Source of the DNA: Acidobacteriota bacterium
Lineage (GTDB): Bacteria; Acidobacteriota; Thermoanaerobaculia; Multivoradales; JAGPDF01
Direction of reading: 5' to 3'
Assembly: GCA_014584695.1 (NCBI GenBank)
Contig: JACTMI010000037.1
Span: 1-52,552 of the forward strand
Length of the DNA: 52,552 bases
Below the pieces are notes generated by a model. That model had not been told where the DNA came from. It worked only from the letters and a program-made list of their open reading frames with translations, and did no database searches. This document shows, piece after piece, positions 31,900 through 36,825 of this stretch. Within the stretch, counting starts at the first letter, position 1. Every line of letters starts with the position of its first letter. The translations under genes and the position numbers were made by a program.

Positions 31900-33552
31900 A
31901 TGGCGAGAACCCCCTGGTTCACGGCGCTCCGGCGCTCCTATCGACTGGCGCGCGCGGCGCGGGCCGCGACGCTCTCCTCGCGCGACGTCCTCGAGCTCTA
32001 CCGAACGCGCGACGAACCGCGTCCGCTGCCCTGGAGCCGCCGCGAGCTGCTCTCGACGGGCGCCGTGGTCGCCGCCGGCGCGGCGCTGGGCTGCCGGCCC
32101 CGGGCGCTGCCGAGCTCGCCGGTCGCTCTGGATCGACCGGTGGTGATCGTCGGGGCGGGGATCGCCGGCTTGACCTGTGCCTATCGATTGAACGCCGCCG
32201 GCGTGCCGGTCCGGCTGTTCGAGGCTCAAGAGCGCGCCGGTGGACGGATGTACAGCCTGCGCGACCGCTTCGCCGACGGACAGGTCGTGGAGCTCGGCGG
32301 CGAGCTGATCGACACGCCGCACGAGCGGATCCGCGCGCTCGCCGCCGAGCTCGGAATCGAGCTCGACGACCTCGCGCAGGAGGCGGCGGGTCTCCGCCAC
32401 GAGACCTGGTACTTCGAAGGCGCGCTGCGTTCGGACGCCGAGGTCATCGAGGCCTTCCGCCCGGTGGCGGCGCGGATCGAGGCGGCGCTCGCGCCGCTCG
32501 GCGACGCCGAGGAGATCACCTACCGGACGCCTTCGGGCGCCGAGGCGCTCGACCGGATGACGATCGCCGAGTGGCTGGACGGCGCCGGCGTCTCGGGCTG
32601 GTTCCGCAAGCTGCTGGACGTCGCCTACACCACCGAGTACGGTCTCGAGACCGACCGCCAGTCGGCGCTCAACCTGCTCTGGATGATCGATCCCGAGCCA
32701 GATCCGTTCCGGATCTTCGGCGAGAGCGACGAGCGCTTCCACGTCCGCGGCGGCAACGACCGCATCCCGCTCGAGCTGGCTCGCCGCCTCGGCGACCGGA
32801 TCGCGCTCGGCCACGTGCTCGAAGCGGTCTCGCGCCGGCCGGACGGCGACTACGTGGCGTCGCTGCGCCGCGGCGGCACCAGCGTGGAGGTGGCGGCGCC
32901 GATCCTGGTGCTCGCGCTCCCGTTCACCTTGCTGCGCGAGGTCCAGCTGGAGCTCGACCTGCCGGCGGTCAAGCGGACCGCCATCGCCGAGCTCGGTTAC
33001 GGCACCAACGCCAAGCTGATGATCGGCTTCGGCGCGCGCCCCTGGCGGTCCCGCCACGGCTCGAACGGCAGCGCCTTCGCGGACCTGCCGTTCCAGCTGG
33101 TCTGGGAGACCAGCCGCCAGCAGGCGGGGGAGGCCGGGATCCTGACCAATTTCACCGGCGGCCGGCAGGGCGAGGCGGTCGGCGGCGGCACCGCGGCCGA
33201 GCAGGCCGAGCGGGTCGTGGCCGAGCTCGAGGCGATCTTCCCCGGCGTCGCCGCCGCGCGGGCCGTCGCGTCCGCGTCCGCCTCCCGCCCGTCGGAGGGG
33301 CGCGCCCACCTCGCGGAGGCGCGCTTCCACTGGCCCTCGCACCCTTGGAGCCGCGGCAGCTACGCCAGCTACCTGCCCGGCCAGTGGACCGGCATCGCCG
33401 GCGCCGAAGGCGAGCCCGTGGGCGACCTGCACTTCTGCGGCGAGCACTGCTCGCTCGCCGCCCAGGGGTACATGGAAGGCGGCTGCGAGACCGGCGAAGC
33501 CACCGCCGCCGCCATCCTCGCCCGTCTCGGGGCGGCTAGCGGCGCGGCGTGA
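31900..33552 (+). CDS. Flavin amine oxidase, Tat/lipoprotein-type export signal
   Basis: 550 aa. Residues 47-65 hold a twin-Arg stretch RRELLSTG followed by a hydrophobic run and a lipobox-like AALGC (Cys65), so the folded, FAD-loaded enzyme may be exported by Tat and lipid-anchored. The FAD domain starts VVIVGAGIAGL (GAGIAG at 85-90), with AGGRMYSL, GGNDRIPLELA and the C-terminal LHFCGEHCSLAAQGYMEGG that closes the FAD fold. Amine substrate (mono- or polyamine, or L-amino acid) unknown. A 17-bp tail overlap exists with nrfA. Confidence 0.88.
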   Translation: MARTPWFTALRRSYRLARAARAATLSSRDVLELYRTRDEPRPLPWSRRELLSTGAVVAAGAALGCRPRALPSSPVALDRPVVIVGAGIAGLTCAYRLNAAGVPVRLFEAQERAGGRMYSLRDRFADGQVVELGGELIDTPHERIRALAAELGIELDDLAQEAAGLRHETWYFEGALRSDAEVIEAFRPVAARIEAALAPLGDAEEITYRTPSGAEALDRMTIAEWLDGAGVSGWFRKLLDVAYTTEYGLETDRQSALNLLWMIDPEPDPFRIFGESDERFHVRGGNDRIPLELARRLGDRIALGHVLEAVSRRPDGDYVASLRRGGTSVEVAAPILVLALPFTLLREVQLELDLPAVKRTAIAELGYGTNAKLMIGFGARPWRSRHGSNGSAFADLPFQLVWETSRQQAGEAGILTNFTGGRQGEAVGGGTAAEQAERVVAELEAIFPGVAAARAVASASASRPSEGRAHLAEARFHWPSHPWSRGSYASYLPGQWTGIAGAEGEPVGDLHFCGEHCSLAAQGYMEGGCETGEATAAAILARLGAASGAA

Positions 33553-35029
33553 CGACCGCCACGGCGCTGGCCGTCAAGCCGGGCTCCGCCGCCGCGGCGG
33601 TGGCGGCCGGTGGCTCGGCGCGGTTCTCGAAGGTCGGCCGGTAGCTCGGATCGCGCAGCGCGAGCTGTCCCTGCCGGGAGAGGTCGATCGACTCGCCGAG
33701 AATGCGCAGCGCCTCCTGCGGGGCGTGGAAGCCCATCGAGTTCTCCGCCTCGACGAAGTCGAGCCGGAACTGGGCCTGGCGCTGGAACTTGCGCGCCAGC
33801 GCGAGCTCGGCGTCGGAGCGGCCCGCGGCGCGAGCGGCCTCGAGATCCCCGATCAGCTGAACGAGAGCGTCCATCGCCTGCCCACGCATCCGGTAGGTGC
33901 GCTCCTGGATCGCCTCGGCGCGGCCCTTGAGCTCCGCTTCCGACCAGCGGTGGCAGGTCTGGCAGGCCTTGGCGACGTTGAGCAGCGGGCTGCGGACGTG
34001 GTGGTCCGAGACCTTGAGCGCGCCGACGCGTTCGTAGGGCATGTGGCAATCGGCGCAGGCGACCCCCGAGCGGGCGTGGATCCCTTGGCTCCACATCTCG
34101 AACTCCGGGTGTTGCGCCTTGAGCACCTCGGCGCCGGTGAGGGCGTGCGTCCAGTCCTTGAAGCCGATCTCGTCGTAGTAGGCCTGGATCTGCTCGACCT
34201 TCAGCCCCTTGGCCCAGGGGTAGACCAGCCGCTTCTCGGGGCCCTTGAAGTAGTACTCGACATGGCACTGGCCGCAGACGTAGGCCCGCATCTCCTGGCG
34301 GGTCGCCATCGTGTTGGGGTCGTAGTCCGGAATCCCCTGTGACGCCTTGAGCGCGCGGATCCCCTCGAGGAAGCCGGGGCGCGTGATGCGCAGCTGCATG
34401 GACTGCGGATCGTGGCAGTCGATGCAGGAAACCGGGTGAGAGAGCAGCTCGCGCGCCTCCTGGTAGGGCATCTGGTTCATCTTCTCGAAGCCGGCGATCA
34501 GGTCACCCTCGCCCAGGCGCTTGTACGGCACGTAGACCGAGGCGTGACAGTGGGCGCAGGTGCCGGGCTGCTGGGCCACCTGCTGGCGCTCGGTGAAGGT
34601 CTGGTCGTCGAGCATGTAGGCGTGGCCGCGCTCCTCGCGAAAGTCGACCGAGAAAGCGTAGCCCTTCCACATCGTCACCAGCCGCGGGTCCTCCTCGAGG
34701 CGCGACTGCGCGACCACGGAGCGGGGGTCGGCCTCGGTCGGAGTGCGCGGCACCGCCTCGCTGCCGCCGAAGCGGGTCCGCACCTGGTCGACGGTGCGCT
34801 GGTACGAGTCGTATTGGACTGGGAAGTTCTTGCCCCAGATCGCGGGGTCCTCGGTCTCGTCGTCGAGCTCGACCACCCGGAAGAACGGGTTCTTGGCCTC
34901 CTGCTTGCGCTCGAAGATATTGACCAGCAGCGCCGTCGCCAGCGCGCCGCCCACGGCGGCGGCGATCGCGAGCAGGAGGAGGCGCGACTTCGGACGGCCC
35001 GAGGGGTTCGGATCGGTGGCGGATGCCAT
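33536..35029 (-). CDS. nrfA: Ammonia-forming cytochrome c nitrite reductase NrfA
   Basis: 497 aa; ATG 35029 with AAGGAG. An N-terminal membrane segment (residues 16-36) may stay as an anchor. Five heme sites: CAHCH (158-162), CIDCH (202), CGQCH (252), CADCH (325), CQTCH (356). The first, by order the active-site heme, is CXXCH, not the classical CXXCK, so a His rather than Lys would ligate the catalytic heme. Other catalytic surroundings are intact: REERGHAYML, CGQCHVEYYF and KAQHPEFEMW (KXQH motif, 304-307). It reduces nitrite to ammonium with six electrons from NrfH, encoded 11 bp upstream. Confidence 0.93.
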   Translation of the reverse strand: MASATDPNPSGRPKSRLLLLAIAAAVGGALATALLVNIFERKQEAKNPFFRVVELDDETEDPAIWGKNFPVQYDSYQRTVDQVRTRFGGSEAVPRTPTEADPRSVVAQSRLEEDPRLVTMWKGYAFSVDFREERGHAYMLDDQTFTERQQVAQQPGTCAHCHASVYVPYKRLGEGDLIAGFEKMNQMPYQEARELLSHPVSCIDCHDPQSMQLRITRPGFLEGIRALKASQGIPDYDPNTMATRQEMRAYVCGQCHVEYYFKGPEKRLVYPWAKGLKVEQIQAYYDEIGFKDWTHALTGAEVLKAQHPEFEMWSQGIHARSGVACADCHMPYERVGALKVSDHHVRSPLLNVAKACQTCHRWSEAELKGRAEAIQERTYRMRGQAMDALVQLIGDLEAARAAGRSDAELALARKFQRQAQFRLDFVEAENSMGFHAPQEALRILGESIDLSRQGQLALRDPSYRPTFENRAEPPAATAAAAEPGLTASAVAVVTPRR

Positions 35030-35040
35030 GGCGGACTCCT

Positions 35041-35496
35041 TCAGTGGGGGTGCCCCACGTCGCGGTGACAGGTGAGACAGTCGAGTTGGCCGGCGTGGGC
35101 GGAGGGGAGGCGGTCGATCGCCTCCACGATCTCGGCGTGGCACTTGCGGCAGGCCGACTGGGTGACGGTGCGATTCCGGGAAGTGATCTGGATCGGCTCG
35201 GGGAAACGGCCGGTGGTGAAAGCCCAGGAGTGGTTCCAGCCGTTGAGCGCCTTGGTCGCGTACTTGGGAACCAGACCCGGCGGGGTGTGGCAGTCGTTGC
35301 AGACCGCCACCGCGCGGTGGCTCGACTTGGTCCAGCCGGCGAACTGCTCCTCCATGACGTGGCAGTTGGCGCAGGCGCCGGGGTCGTCCGTCATGTAGGA
35401 GGCGCCTTTGGCGTAGGCGAAGGTGTAGATCGCGACGCCCGCGGCCAAGCCGGCGAGCGCGGCGGCGATCCAAGCGCGGTCGAACCGTCGGCTCAT
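35041..35496 (-). CDS. nrfH: NrfH tetraheme quinol dehydrogenase of nitrite reductase
   Basis: 151 aa. One membrane helix (residues about 8-28), then four CXXCH hemes at Cys42, Cys66, Cys116 and Cys140. CANCHVM gives the Met48 typical of heme 1 in NrfH. The protein oxidises menaquinol and passes electrons to NrfA, encoded just downstream; the pair is one transcription unit. ATG 35496 has TAGGAT 8 nt upstream and only a weak AGGA. Upstream lies the twin repeat 35517-35708. Confidence 0.93.
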   Translation of the reverse strand: MSRRFDRAWIAAALAGLAAGVAIYTFAYAKGASYMTDDPGACANCHVMEEQFAGWTKSSHRAVAVCNDCHTPPGLVPKYATKALNGWNHSWAFTTGRFPEPIQITSRNRTVTQSACRKCHAEIVEAIDRLPSAHAGQLDCLTCHRDVGHPH

Positions 35497-35504
35497 CGCT
35501 CGGG

Positions 35505-35510
35505 ATCCTA
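35505..35510 (-). promoter_or_regulatory. TANNNT -10 element 8 nt before nrfH
   Basis: Minus-strand TAGGAT lies 8 nt before ATG 35496. It directly follows (in transcription order) the twin hairpin repeats, so those repeats could influence nrfHA transcription. Confidence 0.4.
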
Positions 35511-35516
35511 TCTGGT

Positions 35517-35603
35517 GGGGAGGGCACGCGCCCTCCCCTCGGCCAGCGGAGTGAATCCGCTGGCCTCACCCCTCCGCGGTCGCTCGCCTGGCGGCTCGCT
35601 CCG
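35517..35603. repeat. 87-bp hairpin repeat, copy 1
   Basis: Structured intergenic repeat. It contains a perfect 9-bp stem with ACGC loop (GGGGAGGGC at 35517-35525, partner 35530-35538) and a perfect 10-bp stem with GTGAA loop (GGCCAGCGGA at 35541-35550, partner 35556-35565), then a 38-bp conserved tail. Copy 2 starts 105 bp further on. Confidence 0.8.
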
Positions 35604-35621
35604 CTGGTCTCAGTCTCACAA

Positions 35622-35708
35622 GGGGAGGGCACGCGCCCTCCCCTCGGGCACCGGAGTGAATCCGGCGCCCTCACCCCTCCGCGGTCGCTCGCCTGGCGGC
35701 TCGCTCCG
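35622..35708. repeat. 87-bp hairpin repeat, copy 2
   Basis: Same length as copy 1, with 82 of 87 bases identical. All five differences fall in the two arms of the second hairpin (35646-35655 with 35661-35670). Two pairs change compensatorily, and the fifth change yields a G-U wobble if the minus strand is transcribed. The remaining 267-bp gap (35497-35763) holds no gene I can support. Confidence 0.8.
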
Positions 35709-35763
35709 GGATTTTGGCGACGGGGGGATTGGGGCTTGGTGCGGGATCTCGAGGGTCGGGAGC

Positions 35764-36825
35764 TCAGCGTGGGGCGGCTTTTGCGTGCACGCGCTCGAGC
35801 AGCGCGAGGAAGCGGGCTTCGCTGCGGAGCGAGGCGAGGTCGGGATCGGAGGCCATCTGTTCCGGCCGAGCAAGGCCTTCCGCGACCGCTTGCTCGAGCG
35901 AGGTGAGGGCCTCGCCGCGCATGCCCGCTCGCGCCTGGGCGCAGGCCAGGTTGTAGCGCAGGTAGGGGTCGCCCGGTCGCGCTTCGGCCGCCAGGGCGAG
36001 GGCGACCACCGCCTTGGGAAAATCGCCGGCGGCGAACAGCTCCCGCATCTGGTAGAAGCCGAGCTGGGCCGCGACCGAAGCGAGCACCCGCTGCGCGGCG
36101 CGCCCGCGCTCGCCCGATTCTCGCGCCTGTCCGAGCAGCCCGTCGAGGCCGAGCGCCGCGCGCAGCTTGCCGACCGGCGCGACCGGCTCGGTTTCGGCGA
36201 GCAGAGCGAGGGTCTCGGCGATCCGGCGGCGCCCTTGCTCCTCGTAGCGGGCGACCCACTTCCGCTCTTTGAGCGCGGCGCGGGCCGGCGCGCCGCGGAG
36301 CAGCTCGGCGCCGCGCTCGCCGGCGGCCGCGACCTCGCGCAATCCGGCGTAGGTGGCGGCGACGGCCGAAAAGCGGCGCGCCGCGCCGAGCGGATCGCCC
36401 GCCGCGAGGTCGGCCTCGGCGGCGGCGAGGTCGGCGGCGAGGGCGGCGTCGATCACCCGCTCGTCGCGCGGGCGGCGGCCGTCGCGCATCGCCAGCACTT
36501 CGAGCCAGGTGACGGCCCGCCGGGCTTCGTCGGACGAGAACCAGGCGTGGGGCCCCTCGAAGGGCTCGAAGCGATGCGCCACACCGGACGCCGCCGCGGC
36601 GGCCTCGAGCTCGAGCGAGGGCAGGAAGTTGAAGTCGACGGTGCCGGCGGCGATCCAGGCGGCGCAGCGCAGCGGTGCCTTCTCGAAGCCGTCCGGCGGC
36701 CGGCCGCCGACCGGAACGATGCCGGCGAGCTGGTCGCCGCGCTGGCCGATCAACCAGGAGAGGATCGCGCCGCCCGAGAACCCGCTGGCGTAGACGCGCC
36801 GCGGATCGATCGGCAGCCGGCGCAT
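35764..36825 (-). CDS. Esterase/PHB depolymerase-like gene, 3' part (after frameshift)
   Basis: 353 aa frame starting at ATG 36825. It begins MRRLPIDPRRVYASGFSGGA, where GFSGG is the nucleophile elbow of alpha/beta hydrolases of the PHB-depolymerase/feruloyl esterase type. GPHAWFSSDE probably supplies the catalytic His. From residue about 130 on it is helical and TPR-like (PGDPYLRYNLACAQARAG). The N-terminal strand half is in the preceding frame; deleting one copy of the 35-bp duplication at 36812-36881 joins both frames into a 480-aa protein. The ATG overlaps the upstream stop as TGATG, so restart translation could yield a two-chain product; otherwise this is a pseudogene or assembly error. 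Confidence 0.75.
   Translation of the reverse strand: MRRLPIDPRRVYASGFSGGAILSWLIGQRGDQLAGIVPVGGRPPDGFEKAPLRCAAWIAAGTVDFNFLPSLELEAAAAASGVAHRFEPFEGPHAWFSSDEARRAVTWLEVLAMRDGRRPRDERVIDAALAADLAAAEADLAAGDPLGAARRFSAVAATYAGLREVAAAGERGAELLRGAPARAALKERKWVARYEEQGRRRIAETLALLAETEPVAPVGKLRAALGLDGLLGQARESGERGRAAQRVLASVAAQLGFYQMRELFAAGDFPKAVVALALAAEARPGDPYLRYNLACAQARAGMRGEALTSLEQAVAEGLARPEQMASDPDLASLRSEARFLALLERVHAKAAPR

Follow-up and report, generated by a model that had tools for sequence, protein, structure and literature searches.

Two copies of a structured repeat lie between nrfH and the gene in front of it

The window, that is, the whole 52,552-nucleotide stretch of DNA analysed here, carries an nrfHA pair on its minus strand. 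Between the nrfH-like gene and the gene upstream of it we found two copies of an 87-bp core made of three hairpins. The features of the locus are listed below; each copy is assigned the strand of the gene that runs into it, and hairpin positions are plus-strand coordinates.

33536..35029, minus strand: nrfA (cytochrome c552)
35041..35496, minus strand: nrfH-like gene (NapC/NirT family), the downstream gene, 20 bp from copy 1
35508..35516, minus strand: short stretch that follows hairpin I when the minus strand is read (family consensus TTTNAGATS; here ACCAGATAG)
35517..35603, minus strand: copy 1, an 87-bp core (hairpin I 35517-35538, II 35541-35565, III 35582-35599)
35604..35621, no strand: 18-bp linker separating copy 1 from copy 2; it ends in TCTCACAA, which also precedes many other copies
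35622..35708, minus strand: copy 2, carrying the five hairpin II changes (hairpin I 35622-35643, II 35646-35670, III 35687-35704)
35709..35763, minus strand: degenerate C-rich 55-nt segment from the stop codon to the core, part of the unit
35764..36825, minus strand: gene with its stop codon ahead of the unit (product of 353 aa without a Pfam match; by eye, the C-terminal part is tetratricopeptide-like)

The two cores, 87 nt each, start 105 bp apart and are 94% identical. All five differences lie in the second hairpin, and two pairs are fully compensated, as the sequence-only reading of this DNA had described. The arms of hairpin II read GGCCAGCGG/CCGCTGGCC in one copy and GGGCACCGG/CCGGCGCCC in the other: pair 3 changes from C-G to G-C, pair 6 from G-C to C-G, and pair 5 from A-T to A.C, corresponding to G.U on the minus strand. 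Whichever strand is folded, both copies beat their dinucleotide-shuffled versions (z -3.3 to -5.0), and no Rfam model matched the window above its gathering score.

The core belongs to a young, dispersed family

The same reading had suggested that the element might be one of a dispersed family, and had named a genome-wide search with a covariance model as the check. The suggestion held: a DNA search found the family first and, with a covariance model built from its copies, we counted ~54 of them in this genome (4.35 Mb, 48 contigs). Identical 87-mers (100%) occur at four separate loci with differing flanks. Among the relatives, Acidobacteria bacterium ACD1, of the same genus (G003), has 2 copies, G004 has 1-2 and the Thermoanaerobaculia MAG JAGOCP01 (G006) has 3-4. 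No family copies were found in G001, G002 and nearly all other sampled genomes of the order, where two marginal matches (E 3e-4 and 6e-4) were inspected and not counted. A scan of the genome contig collection with the hairpin-I pattern returned mostly unrelated stems, and the family only in ACD1 and JAGOCP01; plasmids, phages and viral contigs gave no family match. None of the papers searched dealt with repeats in Thermoanaerobaculia. We take the family to be real and young, with a recent spread in one species of a Thermoanaerobaculia-type genus, and have high confidence that its copies are dispersed repeats placed at gene ends.

Parts of the core also occur by themselves. Its last 44-48 bp (hairpin III plus flank) form tandem arrays of their own at C15:98612-98703, C5:67472-67607 and C18:110964-111063 of this genome. 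On JAGOCP010000011.1 (L093:3444-3998), one intergenic region holds four diverged copies interleaved with a long palindrome, CGTTTCGCGCGCAGGAGACC.., that is also present in G004.

Pairing is maintained by compensation in hairpin II

We aligned 50 copies, 48 from this genome and 2 from ACD1; mean column identity of the core was 90%. Over the whole structure, 34 cells had both sides of a pair changed, as against 9.8 +/- 2.3 in shuffles (0/500 as high), where cells count sequences and not independent events; slid controls gave 0-3 such cells. The signal is confined to three pair columns, all in hairpin II, a helix with 97.4% of its cells paired and uncompensated changes in a few copies. Hairpin I hardly varies, with 99.3% of its cells paired, and hairpin III carries TC for GA at two neighbouring pairs, with the opposite side unchanged, in 23/50 copies, both window copies included. 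Covariation therefore supports hairpin II only, and the earlier claim that structure rather than sequence is being kept stands for this hairpin and fails for the third. In G004 and G006 a different sequence occupies the place of hairpin II and is also palindromic by eye.

Covariation alone is no proof of an RNA, as DNA hairpins or template-switching correction can also keep palindromes. Mismatches of the wobble type on the plus strand (~7 A.C versus 4 G.T) do not settle which strand would be transcribed.

The full unit begins at a stop codon

For the C-rich segment that separates stop codon and core we derived a weak consensus, TGAGCnnCnRCTCCnCGAGATCYCC, that was not seen at 3' ends without the element. 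Beyond its training loci, a sequence-only model of the segment recovered both ACD1 copies, C15:89780, where the core has diverged, and several core-less stop-codon loci; diverged members without a recognisable core lie at C6:77240, C45:36739 and C7:30478. From these results we take the unit to be longer than 87 bp and to start at the stop codon. The segment has diverged much faster than the core, with a mean column identity of 51%. In permutation tests on recent copies, neither an outer helix, in which the segment would pair with the sequence beyond hairpin I, nor a hairpin inside the segment was supported; the latter is present in some diverged members (L145, L035). In ACD1 (C340; L035:1390-1500) the host gene apparently reads into the stop-proximal part, so that its translation would stop at a TAG within the repeat, which suggests an insertion at the stop codon.

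Placement was scored with gene calls from a simple codon-usage gene caller script. The copies group into 38 clusters, and in 37 of these the gene next to hairpin III points towards the element. Its neighbour across the element is co-directional in 19 clusters and convergent in 18, which leaves one reversed cluster and no divergent one. At one cluster, C9:154209, the gene call is doubtful. Among the co-directional cases, forward outnumbers reversed by 19 to 1 (p 4e-5), and the lack of any divergent cluster departs from the background of the window (p 6e-4). In 18 of 37 clusters, stop codon and core lie 52-59 nt apart. The neighbouring genes in G004 and G006 are oriented the opposite way, so the orientation rule is limited to this genus. 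The repeat is ordinary in kind and unusual for its strict placement.

The element is absent from the same junction in three relatives

Next to nrfHA, the element had been read as a possible nitrite or redox control leader of these genes. We compared the junction with that of three relatives. The ortholog of the upstream gene adjoins nrfH in G001 and G002 (nrfH identified by eye), and in G004 the ortholog is followed by a similar junction. The junction of the congener G001 has ~75 nt and no repeat unit, and those of G002 and G004 hold other, unrelated palindromes (GGGGACAGC.. and GGGGACATAC.., respectively). The same spot before nrfH thus attracts different repeat families (L107 in G004, L108 in G002). 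In the window, the 55 + 20 nt lying outside the two cores and the linker give the same total as in G001, as would be expected for an insertion; the segments themselves align poorly. Likewise, genes resembling GAPDH, MgtC/DUF4010 and an oxidoreductase (names by eye) carry the element here and lack it at the 3' ends read in congeners.

A cis-regulatory RNA leader would fit a structured element placed 20 bp upstream of nrfH. Set against this, the same element stands behind ~38 different genes, its orientation tracks the upstream gene, and the syntenic junction has none in any of the three relatives, the place where the earlier reading had proposed to look for it. Given the empty junction in G001, the other palindromes in G002 and G004, and the same element behind so many genes, a leader function is highly improbable, and a false lead, the element as a regulator of nrfHA, is removed. 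Separately, at 35497-35510 on the minus strand, we noted a TAGGAT ~8 bp ahead of the start codon of nrfH, with a comparable TAGCAT in G001; a leaderless nrfH transcript might use these as -10 boxes.

The unit probably serves as a 3'-UTR structure

We consider it probable that the family is a young, non-autonomous, REP/BIME-like dispersed repeat that serves as the 3'-UTR structure of the upstream gene, as a terminator or a 3'-end protector. The unit, running from the stop codon through the C-rich segment to the three-hairpin core, would form the 3' UTR of the preceding gene. Hairpin I (GGGGAGGGC-GCGU-GCCCUCCCC, then a short U-rich stretch) would most likely end the transcript or protect its 3' end, and an enzyme acting in trans would copy the unit. 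Our confidence in the transcript-end role, which presupposes that the unit is transcribed and would terminate or stabilise the mRNA, is moderate. On the minus strand, T follows hairpin I at positions 1-3 in 32, 23 and 22 of 38 cases. A strict scan for intrinsic terminators (stem plus T-rich tract, 5 of 8) found none, the run of Ts being short. Ahead of hairpin I, a segment rich in C and poor in G would also suit Rho. We counted in favour of the 3'-UTR reading that the hairpin-I pattern scan found similar stems at gene ends in unrelated genomes. Against it we counted that hairpin III is not kept in 23/50 copies, that neighbouring genes are reversed in G004 and G006, and that no transposase is linked.

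A purely selfish, REPIN- or MITE-like DNA repeat, copied in trans by a Y1/HuH transposase through single-stranded hairpins and found at 3' ends as harmless places to insert, would account for the recent spread, the identical copies and the palindromes with pairing kept; the genome also has four Y1_Tnp genes. However, harmless places would predict both orientations between co-directional genes, where we saw 19 to 1, and no fixed distance from the stop codon. Moreover, no Y1 gene is flanked by the repeat: the surroundings of the four, over ~3.5 kb or more, hold no copy. We therefore regard a selfish repeat as possible but on balance unlikely. The unit might instead be an old 3'-UTR motif inherited with its genes, in which gene conversion keeps the core alike while the stop-proximal segment drifts. 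The identities of segment and core (51% versus 90%), the core-less members and the diverged core at C15:89780 are what such a motif would leave, but the element is absent from the 3' ends read in congeners and the family from G001 and G002, which makes this origin quite improbable.

The preferred reading, a 3'-UTR structure, could be taken further. A mobile 3'-UTR cassette would insert one way behind stop codons, bring its own transcript end and be copied by an enzyme that recognises gene ends; we hold this to be an unlikely, speculative extension. An oriented family that often sits at a fixed distance from the stop would separate insertion targeting from mere tolerance, and its ~38 natural 3' ends in one genome offer material for testing a terminator or mRNA-protection role.

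Two other candidates concern enzymes. The gene between two inverted copies at C9 152.9-153.7 kb does not look like a transposase; by eye it resembles a metallo-hydrolase (HYHLDH motif). A RAYT-like Y1 transposase gene (L059:4023-4757; C6:222 kb of this genome) lies amid many copies of a different palindrome of the GGGACAGGCACGCAATATTCATTGCGTGCCTGTCCCC type, and the two look like a genuine REP/RAYT pair.

Comparison with known repeat systems

In E. coli, REP and BIME units end transcripts or protect 3' ends. A REP is a 20-40 bp palindrome preceded by a conserved GTAG or CGTC tetranucleotide (PMC3733652, PMC8266576), and REP elements prefer convergent and co-directional gene ends, with a reported role at mRNA ends (PMC3733652, PMC12306157). 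In a REPtron, a RAYT gene lies between a pair of inverted copies of one REP (PMC2817692). Like the REP, BIME and REPIN families, the present one consists of short GC-rich palindromes in tens of copies, intergenic, in tandem pairs and mosaic modules, and it shares the preference for convergent and co-directional gene ends (PMC3733652) and the proposed termination and mRNA-protection roles. The ~54 copies are intergenic, with 19 co-directional, 18 convergent, 1 reversed and 0 divergent clusters, and tandem cores, 44-bp tail arrays and half units make up a BIME-like mosaic.

It differs in its 87-bp core with three hairpins, as against 20-40 bp, and in its nearly single orientation and preferred distance from the stop codon; the alternating orientation of classical BIMEs was not seen among the clusters. 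In the consensus of 50 copies, no GTAG or CGTC stands next to any of the three hairpins (the minus-strand end is GGAGCGAGCC). With no such tag, no RAYT flanked by the repeat and no copy near the four Y1_Tnp genes, the family lacks the defining marks of a REP/RAYT system.

Compared by description, mycobacterial interspersed repetitive units (MIRUs) are likewise short repeats at stop codons with a fixed orientation to the flanking genes. They differ in sitting inside operons, where a stop codon overlaps a start codon, and in having no palindromic hairpin units. Intrinsic (Rho-independent) terminators share the GC-rich stem behind the stop and the enrichment of T at positions 1-3 after hairpin I, but here there is no proper U tract, there are two further hairpins, and one sequence recurs at ~38 places. 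Palindromic repeats at gene ends are already known; the near-complete orientation and the frequently fixed stop distance are unusual and set this family apart.
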